Below are positions 14,234-21,164 of a DNA stretch of 64,000 nt, one piece after another. Each line of letters starts with the position of its first letter. The first letter of the stretch is position 1. Origin of the DNA: Planctopirus ephydatiae (GTDB taxonomy: Bacteria > Planctomycetota > Planctomycetia > Planctomycetales > Planctomycetaceae); NCBI RefSeq assembly GCF_007752345.1, contig NZ_CP036299.1:4188001-4252000 (forward strand). Reading direction: 5' to 3'. A program made the position numbers and the translations under genes. The notes below the pieces were generated by a model. The model had not been told where the DNA came from and did not search any database. It saw nothing but the letters and a program-made list of their open reading frames with translations.

Positions 14234-15379
14234 CTACGATTTGGACTTGCCAGCTTTTTTCACAGGGGCTGCCTTGCTCTTGGCAGAGGTAGTTTTCGCA
14301 TCCCCCTTCGCTGTCTTGGCTGAAGACGCAGCTTTGGCAGATTTCTTGTCAGGCGCCGCTTTTGAAGCCGCCTTCGTGCTGGGTGCCTTTTCGGCTTTTT
14401 CTGTCTTCTCAGTCTTTTTGGCAGTTGAGCTCACAGCCTTTGAAGTCGCTGCCTTTTCAGTGCTTTCCTTAGTCGCCTTAGGAGCTTTCTTAGTAACTGC
14501 CTTGGTAGGCTTGTCATCGACCGCTTTGGTGCCTTTGGGGCCTTTTGTTGTCGGGCCAGCCGCAACATCGACTTCTGTGGTCTTCTCTCCAGACTTGGGA
14601 GACTTGGGACCACCCTTGGCTTTAGGCTCGGTCTGCTTCTTCAGCTTCTCCCAGTAGGCGGCAGGCCCGAGCTTCATGAGTTCAGCGAGTCGTTCCATCG
14701 CGGTCCCGGCATCGAAACCTTCTGGTGAATGCGGGTAAACCTCTTTATTGAAGGCACTTCGCAGATTGGAATCTGTCGCCAGAGCACGAATCATCCCACA
14801 AAAACTATCCACTTCTGCTTTTTTGACAGTGGACTTAAGCGACTCACTGATTTCGTCAGCACTTTGTCCGGGCATCGCCAGTCCCAGCCAGACCAGTGTA
14901 TGAATCGAGCTTTCATCCAGAGGGATGACATGCGCACCAAGAACTGCATGCAGTGTGTAAGTTCTGACAAAGGCGGTAGCCGACTTGATTTTCACAAGTT
15001 GCTTCTGGGCCAGTTCGAGTGTCCGCTTTTTGAGCCCTTCGAACTCGAAAGTATAATTCTTATCGAAGACATGCTGCAGCACGCCTTTGTAACGATAAGC
15101 CTTCCATTCGCTGTTATGGAGCGACCCCAGAGCCTCCTGTAGTTCGGTCACAGAACTGACACGGGCTTCGTTCAGGTCTGTAAAGGCTGCTCTCAATTGC
15201 TCATAAGCAGCCTGAGCATCTTCAATCGGTGAATCTTCCAGGCAGACTGCAAAGAGCATCGTTTCCAGAACCGGAAACTCGGGAGACGATGGCAGTTTAT
15301 GAAGCTTTTTGACAACCGGATGAAGCTTCTTCAGAAGTGCCTGCTTGTCGGCGGTTTTTGTTCGTACGGCAGAGGCCAT
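14234..15379 (-). CDS. Putative HhH-GPD/endonuclease-III-like protein with histone H1-like tail
   Basis: A 381-residue protein in two parts. Residues 1-240 resemble the endonuclease III helical fold: PEFPVLETMLFAVCLED matches the first helices, AAFTDLNEARVSSVTELQEA the middle, and HAVLGAHVIPLDESSIHTL the region that in Nth carries the catalytic Asp (here in IPLDES). The helix-hairpin-helix LPGVGxK motif and its catalytic Lys are not visible, nor are the four Cys of the iron-sulfur cluster, so glycosylase activity is doubtful. Residues 250-381 are almost only Lys, Ala, Thr, Ser and Pro (for example KKAPKATKESTEKAATSKAV), like histone H1 or bacterial Hc1-type tails that bind DNA. It lies downstream of rbfA on the same strand. 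The fold assignment is by eye only. Confidence 0.6.
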   Translation of the reverse strand: MASAVRTKTADKQALLKKLHPVVKKLHKLPSSPEFPVLETMLFAVCLEDSPIEDAQAAYEQLRAAFTDLNEARVSSVTELQEALGSLHNSEWKAYRYKGVLQHVFDKNYTFEFEGLKKRTLELAQKQLVKIKSATAFVRTYTLHAVLGAHVIPLDESSIHTLVWLGLAMPGQSADEISESLKSTVKKAEVDSFCGMIRALATDSNLRSAFNKEVYPHSPEGFDAGTAMERLAELMKLGPAAYWEKLKKQTEPKAKGGPKSPKSGEKTTEVDVAAGPTTKGPKGTKAVDDKPTKAVTKKAPKATKESTEKAATSKAVSSTAKKTEKTEKAEKAPSTKAASKAAPDKKSAKAASSAKTAKGDAKTTSAKSKAAPVKKAGKSKS

Positions 15380-15611: not shown

Positions 15612-16421
15612 TTATACCGATTTTGATTCACCAGAGACATCTGTATCACCCGCCGCACCATCAGAAACTCGACCCAAGTCTTCACTGGTCACCACTGGAT
15701 CTACGGCACTCGATGAGGATGCCTCCTCGTTCAATTCGCCAGCTTCTTCCGCTTCATCGGCCTCAAATTCTTCATCATAAAGATCGTCATCCAGAGAATC
15801 TTCCCCCTCCTCTTCGGCTTCATCGGTGTCAGCTTCATCGGTGTCAACTTCATCGCTGTCAGCCTCATCGCTGTCAGCCTCATCGCTGTCAGCCTCATCG
15901 CTGTCAGCCTCATCGCTGTCAGCCTCATCGCTGTCAGCCTCATCGCTGTCAGCCTCATCGCTGTCAGCCTCATCGCTGTCAGCCTCATCGCTGTCAGCCT
16001 CATCGCTGTCAGCCTCATCGCTGTCAGCCTCATCGCTGTCAGCCTCATCGCTGTCAGCCTCATCGCTGTCAGCCTCATCAGTGGGAAGAACCTCTCGCAA
16101 GGCTATTGACGTTTCAATACTCCGCTTGACCCCCTGATCGAGCACAAATGTCAGCACCGGGGTATAGCGCGTCTCCAGTCGGTCTGCGATCTTGGCCTGA
16201 AAGAAGCCGCAGGCTGATTGCAAACCGTGCATGCACAAAGACTGCTCTTTGGGAGTCCCCATCACCGAAACATGAACTCGTGCGGTTCGCATATCCGGAG
16301 CCACCTCTGCCGAAAGAACAGTGACGTTCTTGACGCGTGGATCACGGATATGCCGCATGATCGTCAGGCTGACTGTTTCCAGCACAGCCTGAGAAGCCTT
16401 TGCAAGTCGTCGAGACATCAT
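15612..16421 (-). CDS. rbfA: Ribosome-binding factor A with long acidic repeat tail
   Basis: A 269-residue protein. The first 115 residues are RbfA, a KH-like 16S rRNA maturation factor of the 30S subunit, with SLTIMRHIRDPRVKNVTVLS and the downstream LDQGVKRSIETSIALREVLP. The remainder is a very acidic tail of DEADS pentapeptides, then DEVDTDEADTDE and an Asp/Glu-rich end. Typical RbfA is about 110-140 residues, so the tail more than doubles it. The tail is encoded by tandem DNA repeats described separately. It follows infB with an 82-base gap, the usual nusA-infB-rbfA order. Two tandem ATG codons exist at 16421 and 16418. Confidence 0.9.
   Translation of the reverse strand: MMSRRLAKASQAVLETVSLTIMRHIRDPRVKNVTVLSAEVAPDMRTARVHVSVMGTPKEQSLCMHGLQSACGFFQAKIADRLETRYTPVLTFVLDQGVKRSIETSIALREVLPTDEADSDEADSDEADSDEADSDEADSDEADSDEADSDEADSDEADSDEADSDEADSDEADSDEADSDEADSDEADSDEVDTDEADTDEAEEEGEDSLDDDLYDEEFEADEAEEAGELNEEASSSSAVDPVVTSEDLGRVSDGAAGDTDVSGESKSV
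15825..16079 (-). repeat. Tandem 15-bp repeat array inside rbfA
   Basis: Fifteen identical units of GCTGTCAGCCTCATC on the plus strand fill 15855-16079, preceded by two diverged units (15825-15839 and 15840-15854). On the coding strand each unit encodes Asp-Glu-Ala-Asp-Ser. Complete identity at the DNA level, including synonymous positions, suggests recent or ongoing copy-number change by slippage or unequal recombination. Because the unit is a multiple of three, copy changes keep the frame. There are no spacers, so this is not a CRISPR array. Confidence 0.97.
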
Positions 16422-16503: not shown

Positions 16504-19500
16504 TTAATCGAATGTCCGTTTGACTTCTTCGATCTTGTAGGCTTCCAGCAGATCCCCTTCCTTCACGTCATTAAATCCTTCCAGTCGGATACCGCATTCC
16601 ATCCCTTCGCGAACCTCACGGCTGTCGTCTTTCTCACGCCTGAGCGAGGCAATCGCGTAAGAGTTCAGCACCTTCTGGTCTCGAATCACATGGATGCGGT
16701 TGGTTCGCTCGATCGTTCCATTCAACACGCGGCAACCGGCAATTGTGCCAAAACGACTGATATTGAACGTTTGCAGGACAATCGCCCGGCCCAGTGTGAC
16801 TTCCTTCTTGGCCGGCTTGAGCATCCCTTCCAGAGTCTGCTTAATTTCGTCAATCACTTCATAAATGATGTTGTAACGGCGGATTTCCACATTCTCCTGC
16901 AGTGCCAGAGCCGCTGCCCGGTCTTCAGGAATCACATGGAAGGCAATAATGATTGCCGAAGAAGCACTGGCGAGATAGACATCACTTTCGTTGACGCCAC
17001 CGACACCTTCGTGCAGGATGCGAACGCGAACTTCGGGATGTTCAAACTTCCCGATTTCACTTCGCAGAGCTTCCAGAGAACCTGGCGTATCGGCCTTAAC
17101 GATCACACCCAGATCCTGAATTTCACCCTCGCGGGCAGCGTTGAGAATATCTTCCAGCGTTCGTTTACCACCGCGCGAAGAGAGCGAGACCTGTCGGCCA
17201 GCCATCCGTCGCCGCTCGGCAATCTCACGAGCCAGATCCAGATCGTCGAGCACCACAAACTTATCACCAGGAGCAGGAACGATATCGAGACCTGCCAGCA
17301 TGACCGGTGTCGATGGCGGAGCTTCATCGAGTTCCTGCTGATGTTCGTTGAAAATGGACCGTACTTTGCCGTAAGCCTGCCCACACAGAACGACGTCTCC
17401 GCGACGGAGTGTCCCCTTCTGCACAATGAGCCAGGCCAGTGGACCGCGACCTTCATCACGGAAGGCTTCGAGGCAGGCCCCGGTGGCGGGACGCTGCGAA
17501 TTCGCCTTGAACTCATTGAGTTCTGCGGTCAGCAATAATGTTTCCAGCAGTTCATCCAGACCTTCGCCAGATAAACCGGAGGTGCGTACGACTTCAGTGT
17601 CTCCACCCCATTCGGCAGCCAGCACGTTCTGGGCAGCCAGTTCCTGAAGGACACGCTGCTCATTTCGATCAGGCAGGTCAACCTTATTCAGTGCGACAAC
17701 CAGTGGCACACCGGCGGCTTTGGCATGAGCAATACATTCCACAGTCTGAGGCATGACACCGTCATTCGCAGCCACCACCAGCACAACGATATCAGTCACG
17801 TTGGCGCCGCGAGCACGCATTTCACCAAATGCCGCGTGGCCGGGAGTATCCACGAATGTCAGCTTCTGACCATTCTTCGTTACCTGATAAGCTGCAATAT
17901 GCTGGGTAATACCCCCATGTTCGGAGGCAGCCACGTTCGCAGATCGAAGCTTGTCGACCAGAGTCGTCTTGCCGTGATCGACGTGCCCGAGAATCGTGAT
18001 GATTGGTGGTCGATTTTCCAGAACCGAGGGATCGTCTGGGAGATCGATGTATTCCTGCAGTTCGTCTTCGACATCTTTGGGTTTGACGATCTTGAGATCA
18101 ACGCCCAGTTCCAGAGAGAGTTCGAGGGCTGTCTCTTCATGCAGCAGGCTGTTGATCGTCAACATTTCGCCACGTTTGAAGAGAATCCCAAGGATCTGCT
18201 TGGCCGGCCGGCCAATCGCTTCCGAAAGAGAGCGAACAGTGAGTGGTGGCTCAATTTCGGCTGTTGTTTTGAGCTGTGTGGTTTGCTTCTGACCGGGCCG
18301 ACGAATGAGCTTGCGAACGGCCTTACGTTCGGCAACTTCTTCTTCCTCAGAAGAACGAACATCTTTCGTCCGCTTGACCCGGCGGGCTTCACGGACTTCT
18401 TCCATACCAGCACCCAAGGCATTTTTATCTGCCTTTTTGCCACCGGCACGACCCTCCATGATATCCGCAAGATCGGCTTTGTTCTTTTCGTCACTGCCGC
18501 GGCGACCACCGCTACCAGCGACTCGATCTCCCAGAGGAGAATGTGTGACCAGCTTACCTTTGATATCAATACGGATATCAGGTACCTGGGCTTTGACGTC
18601 TTCTTTACGAGCGACCGGGCCGCCACTGAATGGCGCCAGATTCGCAACACCCGGCACATTCATGCGGGGGCGGTTGGAGGGCTCATTCCCTCCTCGATTC
18701 ACAGGGGGTGCTGCTCCACCACCCGGAGCCGGCGGCCCTTGAGTGGCTGCCTGCTCACCTCGCGAAGGAGTTCCTCGACTGCTCATTCCCATATCACGCA
18801 TGGGGCGACTGCCGACCGCACGCATCGGCCCACCGGCCATGCGAGAAGGCATCGAAGGACGTTCCGGCACACCCGAAACACGATTGGCCGAATCCTGTGA
18901 TGGCTGCGAAGTCCCACCCTCCCCACCATTCCCAGCGCCGGGTGCCGAACGCTGCAATGTTTTGGAACCGGCACCCTGTGAAGCATCAGTTCCAGCATTG
19001 CCTTTCGCACTGACAGAACCACGCGAGGTCATCTGGTGTTCACGCACAGGTGTTGGCGGAGTCACTGACTCGACAGTCGCAGAGCTTGATTCGTCACCAG
19101 AATCGGTTTCACCAGCCACATCGGCAGTGGTAATCGCTGCTTCTGTGGATGCTTCGATTTCAGTCGAAACTTCGGTGTCGTGCGAGCCAACGACAGTCGC
19201 CTCAGTCTGCCCGAATGAGTCTTCCTGAGCCTCAACCTCTTGAACTTCGGGCGAAAACTCTCCATCCAGCTCCCGGGGAGCTTCGTGAACAGGTTGGAGA
19301 TTTCCTGAAGCTGTCGGCTTAGCCGCGGGGGATTTGGAAATCATATCCCGAAGTTTGCGAACCGCTCCCGCCAGCTCACGAACATGTTCTTCGCGCTGGG
19401 GCGTCACAGGAGCTTCACCTCCCGGAGCAGTCATCACGGTGGTTGAACCACCGTTGCGGATAATTGCCAGAACACGATCGCGTTCCTCTGGCGAGATACT

Positions 19501-19608
19501 GGCCAGGGCAGAGTTCTTGACCACAATGCCAGCCTTAGCGCAGTGCTCGATCAACAGCCTGCTGTCCATATCGAGCTCTTTGGCAAGAGCGAAAATTCGA
19601 ATCTTCAA
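16504..19608 (-). CDS. infB: Translation initiation factor IF-2
   Basis: A 1034-residue IF-2, the GTPase that places initiator tRNA on the 30S subunit. The N-terminus [20 protein letters not shown] is a typical IF2-N module. A long low-complexity Ser/Gly/Pro/Arg-rich stretch (about 80-380) follows, then the G domain with [31 protein letters not shown] and NKVDL. Domain 2 and C-terminal domains end in EVKRTFD. It is longer than E. coli IF-2 (890) owing to the N-terminal linker. The start is TTG with GAGGA eight bases upstream. nusA lies upstream and rbfA downstream. Confidence 0.97.
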
Positions 19609-19829: not shown

Positions 19830-21164
19830 TTACGATTTATTGCCGGCCGCCTCCTCGACAGATGCTTCACTGGTCGATTCCGCAGCGGGTGGCACTTTGC
19901 TTTCTACAGGGGGACTCGAGGCGCGTGCCTCTTCCGCCCGACGCTGCTCCCGCTCTTGAGATTGCCGCTCGGCCTTCTCGGTCGCACGACGAAGATCCTG
20001 CTCCTTTTCAATCCGCTCGCTTTCGCGTTCGGCGTATTCGACAATCACGTCGGCCTGCTCTTGAGTTAATGAGCCCATCTCCATCAGCTCGTCGGGCTCG
20101 ATAACAGACAGGTCTTCAAAACTCAGAAATCCTTGCGATACCAGCCCTTCCGCCAGTTCCTCGGAAACTCCCGGGATCTGCGAATAGGCCACGACCGCCT
20201 GGTCAAGCTGCTGATCCAGCTCTTCACGAGTCATCACGTCGATATCCCAGCCCACCAGCTTAGAAGCCAGACGCACATTCTGGCCCCGTTTGCCAATCGC
20301 CAGAGAAAGCTGATCATCCCGCACAAGTACCAGCACCCGGCCCAGCATCGGGCAAAGAATGACATCTTCCACTTCCGAGGGCTGCATCGCATTCGGGACG
20401 AGCACCTGGAGGGAATCATTCCAGCGAACAACTTCAATTCGCTCTCCACCCAGCTCTTCGCCCACATTGCGAATACGGGCACCACGCACACCCACGCAGG
20501 CACCGACCGGGTCGATATTGCTGTCGGCACAGGAGACAGCCACTTTTGTTCGGTACCCAGCTTCCCGAGCCAATGACCGGATCTCGATAATCCTCTCGTT
20601 GACTTCAGGAATTTCCAGTTCAAGCAGGCGGCGGACAAAATCGGGATGAGCTCGAGACAGCACCACTCGAACGCGAGGGCCCATCTTTTTTACTTCCAGC
20701 ACCACGGCACGAATTCGCTCATTCGGACGATGCGATTCACCCGGGATCATTTCACTGCGAGGTAGAATCGCTTCCGCCTTGCCAATGTTGACCGTAATGG
20801 CACTTCCCTCATTGCGAGTCACTGTCCCGGAGACAATCTGCCCTCGCAACTGGGCATATTCATCAAACAACGTATCACGTTCAGCTTCACGAATCTTCTG
20901 AATCATGACCTGCTTGGCAGTCTGAGCCGAGATGCGGCCAAGAATGTCACCCAGTTCATCGCGGTCAATTTCGCGACCATTGGTTTTCACCATCGGCTGA
21001 CCGCTGGTGCGATCAATATGAACCTCGATGACTTCTTCTTCACCAAAGTGCTTCCGCGCAGCCGAAAGAATGGCCTGCTCCACCCCTTCGAAGACAATCT
21101 CCTTGTCGATGCTCTTATCGCGATGGATCGAATCCACGATCCGCAGCACTTCATTGCCGTTCAT
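19830..21164 (-). CDS. nusA: Transcription termination/antitermination factor NusA
   Basis: A 444-residue NusA, which binds RNA polymerase and RNA during pausing, termination and antitermination. In order: N-terminal RNAP-binding domain (ending near [18 protein letters not shown]), S1 domain ([20 protein letters not shown]), two KH domains ([20 protein letters not shown] and [20 protein letters not shown]), then a helix-hairpin-helix-like segment and a charged Arg/Glu-rich tail. It heads a nusA-infB-rbfA block; rimP, often upstream of nusA, is not seen here. The nusA-infB gap of about 220 bases leaves room for a separate promoter. Confidence 0.96.

Follow-up and report, generated by a model that had tools for sequence, protein, structure and literature searches.

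The RbfA protein of Planctopirus ephydatiae carries, within a long C-terminal tail that is acidic and predicted to be disordered, fifteen tandem copies of a 15-bp unit encoding DEADS. Comparison with congeners and with RbfA proteins across the Planctomycetota suggests that the array is new and the tail is old. The reading we prefer, to which we give an even chance as a whole, is that a seed unit expanded recently by slippage inside an old acidic disordered tail, and that this tail acts as an electrostatic brake. The expansion of a pre-existing unit by slippage or unequal exchange, in a permissive acidic disordered tail, is well supported; as for the tail, a brake on unspecific RNA or mRNA binding would be, judged by analogy, its likeliest role. 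The gene lies in the window, by which we mean the whole 64,000-nucleotide stretch analyzed, and coordinates refer to it unless a sampled locus is named. P. ephydatiae spb1 is a freshwater-sponge isolate (PMC10923784), and the host genome consists of a single contig of 5,214,061 bases.

Domain, fold and gene context of RbfA

The rbfA gene (15612-16421, minus strand) encodes a protein of 269 residues, comprising a KH-type RbfA domain (approximately residues 1-96), a helix (residues 97-111) and a disordered acidic tail. The protein scores above the curated cut-offs of both family profiles, PF02033 (RBFA) at residues 6-103 with an E-value of 7.5e-21 and 74.8 bits against a cut-off of 34.7, and TIGR00082 with 61.4 bits against 51.15. 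In the AlphaFold2 model, residues 1-110 have block means of at least 90 and close with the helix at 97-111, and beyond residue 120 the pLDDT is about 50 and the tail is predicted to be unstructured. This C-terminal helix, encoded at 16089-16133 (minus strand), follows β3 and is the point from which the tail originates, as assigned from the AlphaFold2 secondary structure and the match to 8byv_A. The KH-type RbfA fold was recovered by Foldseek, whose best matches were 1jos, 8byv and 8bxa (E 2.7e-8 to 2.9e-7); the alignments covered 111 columns for RbfA bound to the S. aureus 30S subunit (8byv_A) and 117 for mouse mitochondrial RBFA (7pnu_a). The AXG helix-kink-helix motif, as described for RbfA in PMC9917171, is present as SACGF at residues 69-73, with G72 nearly invariant among 64 aligned proteins. 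With 80 D/E and 3 K/R among its 163 residues and a pLDDT of about 50, the tail of the window protein belongs among disordered stretches rich in acidic residues or phosphorylation sites. Directly upstream of rbfA lies infB, encoding IF-2 (16504-19608, minus strand; Pfam GTP_EFTU, IF-2 and IF2_N).

Extent of the repeat array and its place in the genome

Tandem Repeats Finder (TRF) identified a single array at 15820-16079, with a period of 15, 17.3 copies, 98% matches and a score of 485. Direct reading of the minus strand, from 16079 down to 15855, gives 15 units of GATGAGGCTGACAGC that are letter-for-letter identical (225 bp, 75 residues, (DEADS)x15), followed at 15810-15854 by three degenerate, older units reading DEVDT-DEADT-DEAEE. 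The array is in frame and free of indels within the 269-residue open reading frame (ORF). The first-pass annotation had described 15 identical 15-bp repeats in the RbfA tail at 15825-16079, identical even at synonymous sites. Number and identity are both borne out by TRF and by direct reading, with 0 synonymous differences among the 15 units; the array itself is real but its span needs correction, the exact units occupying 15855-16079 and the start at 15825 taking in two degenerate ones. Under local codon usage, the probability that two independent DEADS encodings match is 0.009, so the identity of the units is not a matter of chance.

The array was set against a background sample of 39 stretches of 20 kb from the same genome (780 kb, 10 kb of it N), which yielded 48 TRF rows. 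The next short-period array in the sample scores 185, against 485 for that in rbfA. A 30-base double unit, allowing up to 3 mismatches, has no occurrence outside rbfA in the whole 5.21-Mb genome, and a wandering repeat or mobile element is rejected, the array being confined to a single place. A 15-bp period peculiar to rbfA is likewise rejected: 16 of the 48 background rows share it, which indicates that slippage is general in this genome and favors neutral growth of the array, a reading weighed below. Three sampled loci deserve a separate mention. L279 (14099-14447) holds the sole sampled array to outscore that of rbfA, a 191-bp unit in 1.8 copies with a score of 549. The second-best short-period array of the sample, at L270 (19823-19960), has a 15-bp unit in 9.4 copies with 83% matches, and in reverse complement it allows the reading AVAKK, lysine-rich and opposite in charge to DEADS. 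At L251 (15057-16875, minus strand), a 605-residue ORF with a 60-residue stretch of net charge -31 overlaps 27/54-bp repeats.

Acidity was compared over 571 non-overlapping ORFs from the sampled stretches and the window. The C-terminal 60 residues of the window RbfA have the lowest charge of all (-19; sample median 0), and the protein also contains the most acidic 60-residue stretch (-37); acidity as a general habit of the proteome is therefore rejected. Two genes upstream of rbfA stand among the ten most acidic of the 571: infB, with a 60-residue stretch of -18, and, in the same upstream run, the gene at 19830-21164 (minus strand), presumably nusA, with one of -15.

Age and origin of the array

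Three congeners were searched, among them P. limnophila DSM 3776; the other two are referred to as G002 and G003. Relative to the window protein, their RbfA cores are 100% (G002), 99% (P. limnophila) and 90% (G003) identical, and their closed proteins of 195, 198 and 176 residues, respectively, end in acidic tails of 90, 93 and 71 residues. The array is absent from all three of these tails. At the place of the array, P. limnophila has DEADSDEADQEGE, an exact unit followed by the initial 11 bases of another, and G002 has DEAETGEEADTDDAEEE, which can be aligned to the array's degenerate flank; G002 carries the related GAAGCTGACACCGATGATGCCGAAGAG where the window genome has its degenerate units (15810-15854). 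Copy number thus varies between species, with 15 exact units in the window genome, 1 in P. limnophila and 0 in G002. The distal, non-repeated part of the acidic tail with its stop codon (15612-15809, minus strand) is common to both close congeners in the DNA alignment. These sequences make the P. limnophila unit a likely seed of the expansion.

The timing can be gauged from the rbfA core, whose dS is 0.22 to P. limnophila and 0.25 to G002. Approximately 6 synonymous changes would be expected in 75 codons since the split from G002 and 0 are observed (Poisson P 0.002, assuming that the units were not homogenized by slippage or exchange), which therefore points to recent expansion or to ongoing homogenization. 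The first-pass annotation had proposed a very recent expansion, and the identity of the units despite this core divergence, together with the absence of the array from three congeners, supports it. It had also presented the long tail as an addition to a protein that normally lacks one, and here the congeners speak against it, since they already end in acidic tails of 71-93 residues. The comparison of C termini in close relatives, which it had suggested, shows an old tail that the array lengthens from about 90 to 163 residues.

Acidic tails across planctomycete RbfA

RbfA was matched in 385 of the 392 planctomycete genomes searched. The 249 loci with RbfA gave 236 distinct proteins, of which 233 distinct closed planctomycete proteins were kept after removal of L075 and L198, whose open frames ran off the sequence, and L091, recorded as a Clostridiales bacterium. 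The L085 tail was included unchanged despite a masked stretch within it; long runs of N, masked or unassembled, are seen both in this acidic tail and in the lysine-rich tail of the rbfA neighbor at L036.

Of the 233 proteins, 222 have a tail of negative net charge, 3 one of zero and 8 one of positive charge, counts that ignore relatedness, and the RbfA core is positive in 230 and zero in 3. The acidic tail is thus the rule in the phylum and not the novelty for which it was initially taken. Lengths range from 14 to 169-170 residues. The window tail is the most negative of the set (-78). Measured from the profile cut it spans 169 residues, and no other fully readable tail is as long; a further tail, of 170, contains a masked run. 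All 53 tails from relatives of the same genus, family or class are negative (median -13), as are 54 of 55 in a second set of contigs (median -9). The wider phylum draw comprised 30 loci and 97 fetched stretches, the higher-scoring among the matches listed for the 385 genomes, and within that selection 115 of 125 tails are negative (median -5). In a Clostridia-group control of 31 loci from 61 genomes, 24 of 31 tails are negative, with a median length of 20 residues and a median net charge of -1. Judging from these sets, a mildly negative C terminus is common, and a long, strongly acidic one appears to be typical of planctomycetes and strongest near Planctopirus.

In-frame tandem repeats were detected by TRF in 33 of the 233 tails, with periods that are multiples of three in all 33 and equal to 15 bp in 12. 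The units differ by locus: LEDEA in L080, SLDDE and PLADE in L046, a DDDDDQ type in L149 and a GADDGA type in L204. Copies in L080 and L046 have already diverged, so these arrays look older or less homogeneous, and a few of the 33 lack an acidic character, such as the lysine-rich one of L241 and the proline-rich one of L019. Repeats have thus grown in frame in this tail on several occasions, from different units and mostly with the same sign of charge. In the open literature, which leaves most subscription journals outside, we found neither a long acidic RbfA tail with recurrent in-frame expansions nor a paper with an rbfA repeat as its title subject. RbfA itself is ordinary; what is best called new is the long acidic tail with its recurrent in-frame expansions.

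Neutral growth accounts for much of this and, although we consider it the less probable account, it is a serious possibility. The tail would tolerate any in-frame acidic filler, a slippage-prone unit would have grown by drift, and both the array and its length would be inert. Tail length varies as widely as described above, the sequence is unconserved beyond its composition, arrays with unrelated units arise in other tails, and the close congeners manage without the array, which neutral growth explains as well as the preferred reading does. Against it stand the sign of charge kept in 222 of 233 tails and the extreme position of the window C terminus among 571 ORFs; the tail as a class is therefore unlikely to be neutral, and inertness would extend to the 15 units only. 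Two observations also constrain the preferred reading of expansion within a functional acidic tail. Across species, tail charge follows core charge only loosely (rho -0.13, p 0.046), which bodes ill for tight electrostatic tuning. Some planctomycetes, moreover, manage with short or even net-positive tails, the charge being zero or positive in 11 of the 233, which means that RbfA can in principle do without the tail.

The downstream neighbor and a possible charge pairing

Directly downstream of rbfA, a gene at 14234-15379 (minus strand), conserved there in Planctomycetia, encodes a helical protein resembling Endonuclease III (EndoIII) with a lysine-rich C-terminal tail. It has no Pfam match and no NCBIfam match above cut-off; at the profile level it resembles Endonuclease III chains (best E 5.4e-10), and its model, with a mean pLDDT of 95, matches EndoIII structures (best E 6.2e-6). 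A cysteine pattern that we take to be the iron-sulphur pattern of EndoIII-like proteins occurs in 10 of 82 neighbors. The long lysine-rich tail on this gene recurs directly downstream of rbfA in loci L001-L090 and L321-L330.

The opposite charges raise the idea that the two tails, acidic on RbfA and lysine-rich on the neighbor, bind each other, thereby linking, or mutually silencing, an assembly factor and a nucleic-acid-binding protein; we regard this as very unlikely. The arrangement is suggestive: 35 of 40 relatives have a match to the neighbor, and of 101 loci, a count that includes duplicates, 96 carry it on the strand of rbfA. The set comprised 96 pairs; 9 rows were left out, 8 because they were truncated where the locus ends and 1 because its gap exceeded 1000, and counting identical RbfA tails once left 77 distinct pairs, in which the neighbor tail is net positive in 76 and the RbfA tail negative in all but one. 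However, the two charges barely co-vary (rho -0.20, p 0.078; for lengths, rho 0.02), and coupling of the two tails is rejected because this co-variation is not significant. The pair is also mostly missing outside Planctomycetia, the neighbor adjoining rbfA in 1 of 30 phylum loci (L100-129), and yet weaker acidic RbfA tails persist outside the class (115 of 125, among the higher-scoring matches listed). The neighbor was seen in 30 of 120 fetched stretches, each with at most 900 bases downstream, and beside rbfA in 0 of 31 Clostridia-group loci.

The array as nucleic acid

It is extremely unlikely that the array matters as DNA or mRNA, its hairpin-forming units regulating transcript folding, translation or recombination. 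The junction between units, GCTGACAGC, is an imperfect palindrome, and in folding the array outperforms 200 of 200 dinucleotide shuffles both as DNA (z -6.9) and as RNA (z -9.5). Nonetheless, repeats with one self-complementary stretch tend to score high in folding, the real unit ranks 17th of 192 synonymous DEADS encodings for DNA folding, and six of seven other rbfA-tail arrays have z values of -1.0 to +3.7 (the remaining one -3.6); it is protein composition that these arrays share. Hairpin folding may have helped the unit to slip, a suggestion that amounts to a hint because of this rank and the six arrays without strong folding. The predicted array RNA (15855-16079, minus strand) is one long imperfect hairpin ladder of -95.7 kcal/mol, which might affect how the 3' part of rbfA is translated.

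An assembly artefact, with a different true copy number or an erroneous array, is scarcely credible: the copy number rests on one assembly, but the genome is a single contig identical in size to that of the published type strain, the array is in frame without indels, and its flanks agree with two congeners.

Proposed mechanism and function

Taken together, the preferred reading of recent expansion within an old acidic tail can be set out as a sequence of steps. The DEADS unit would already have been present in the Planctopirus ancestor and would have grown to 15 identical copies in the P. ephydatiae lineage, presumably by in-frame replication slippage or unequal exchange. This growth would have taken place within a C-terminal tail, acidic and predicted to be intrinsically disordered, that is old and general in planctomycete RbfA and that would be tethered just past the helix leading towards S7 and the mRNA path. 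From there, the tail may compete with RNA for the basic KH face and the nearby channel, such that RbfA would bind its proper 30S site rather than RNA at large and be released more easily, and it may also restrain premature mRNA entry. The 15 extra units may alter the strength of these effects or be neutral. The first-pass suggestion that the tail could modulate RNA binding or 30S release is a reasonable inference.

The structural setting is compatible with such a role. In S. aureus, the C-terminal helix of RbfA contacts S7 and has been suggested to obstruct the mRNA path in part (PMC9917171). In the predicted model, a tail leaving helix 97-111 would start near that path, which is geometry and not proof. 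Nop15, a factor in ribosome biogenesis, has an acidic cluster that suppresses unspecific binding to RNA (PMC8348266). Our search of the open literature found no experiments on any planctomycete RbfA.

A bolder proposal, which we consider improbable, is that the planctomycete tail does in bacteria what the extension of mitochondrial RBFA does: as a polyanion it would take the place of mRNA in the channel of the immature 30S subunit up to the departure of RbfA, and in-frame slippage would set its length and charge, giving a core assembly step a mutable dial, with the lysine-tailed neighbor perhaps serving as a charge partner in Planctomycetia. The authors of PMC9917171 remark that bacteria may need another protein for the job of the mitochondrial extension. 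A tail that controlled the access of RNA or mRNA would supply, for one phylum, a reply to that remark. In planctomycete RbfA, the charge of the tail is maintained as its sequence is replaced, in part through expanding repeats. Direct testing is possible in P. limnophila, a species that possesses both tail and seed and whose essential genes have already been studied genome-wide (PMC10632474); on the essentiality of rbfA in this species, the main text of that study does not mention the gene by name.

Comparison with known systems

The window protein resembles the RbfA family (PF02033/TIGR00082) in its KH-type fold, its scores above cut-off, the helix after β3 and the neighboring infB. It departs from the family in its acidic disordered tail of 163 residues, against approximately 20 in the Clostridia-group control, and in its 15 identical tandem units. 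An analogy for the proposed competition is offered by the acidic C-terminal tip of Hfq and by other nucleic-acid-mimic tails, where an acidic disordered tail competes with RNA for a basic surface; the planctomycete tail is like the Hfq tip in acidic disorder and unlike it in fold and partner. Nop15 likewise has a disordered acidic stretch on the RNA-binding domain of a ribosome-biogenesis factor, but that domain is an RRM and not a KH-type RbfA domain, and the effect measured in Nop15 (PMC8348266) would apply to RbfA by analogy. In the case of mammalian mitochondrial RBFA, a KH domain is again combined with a long C-terminal extension, which runs more than 60 Å through the mRNA channel (PMC9200640). 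The planctomycete tail differs in being acidic, often repetitive and predicted to be disordered, and the likeness lies in the fold and the start of the helix.
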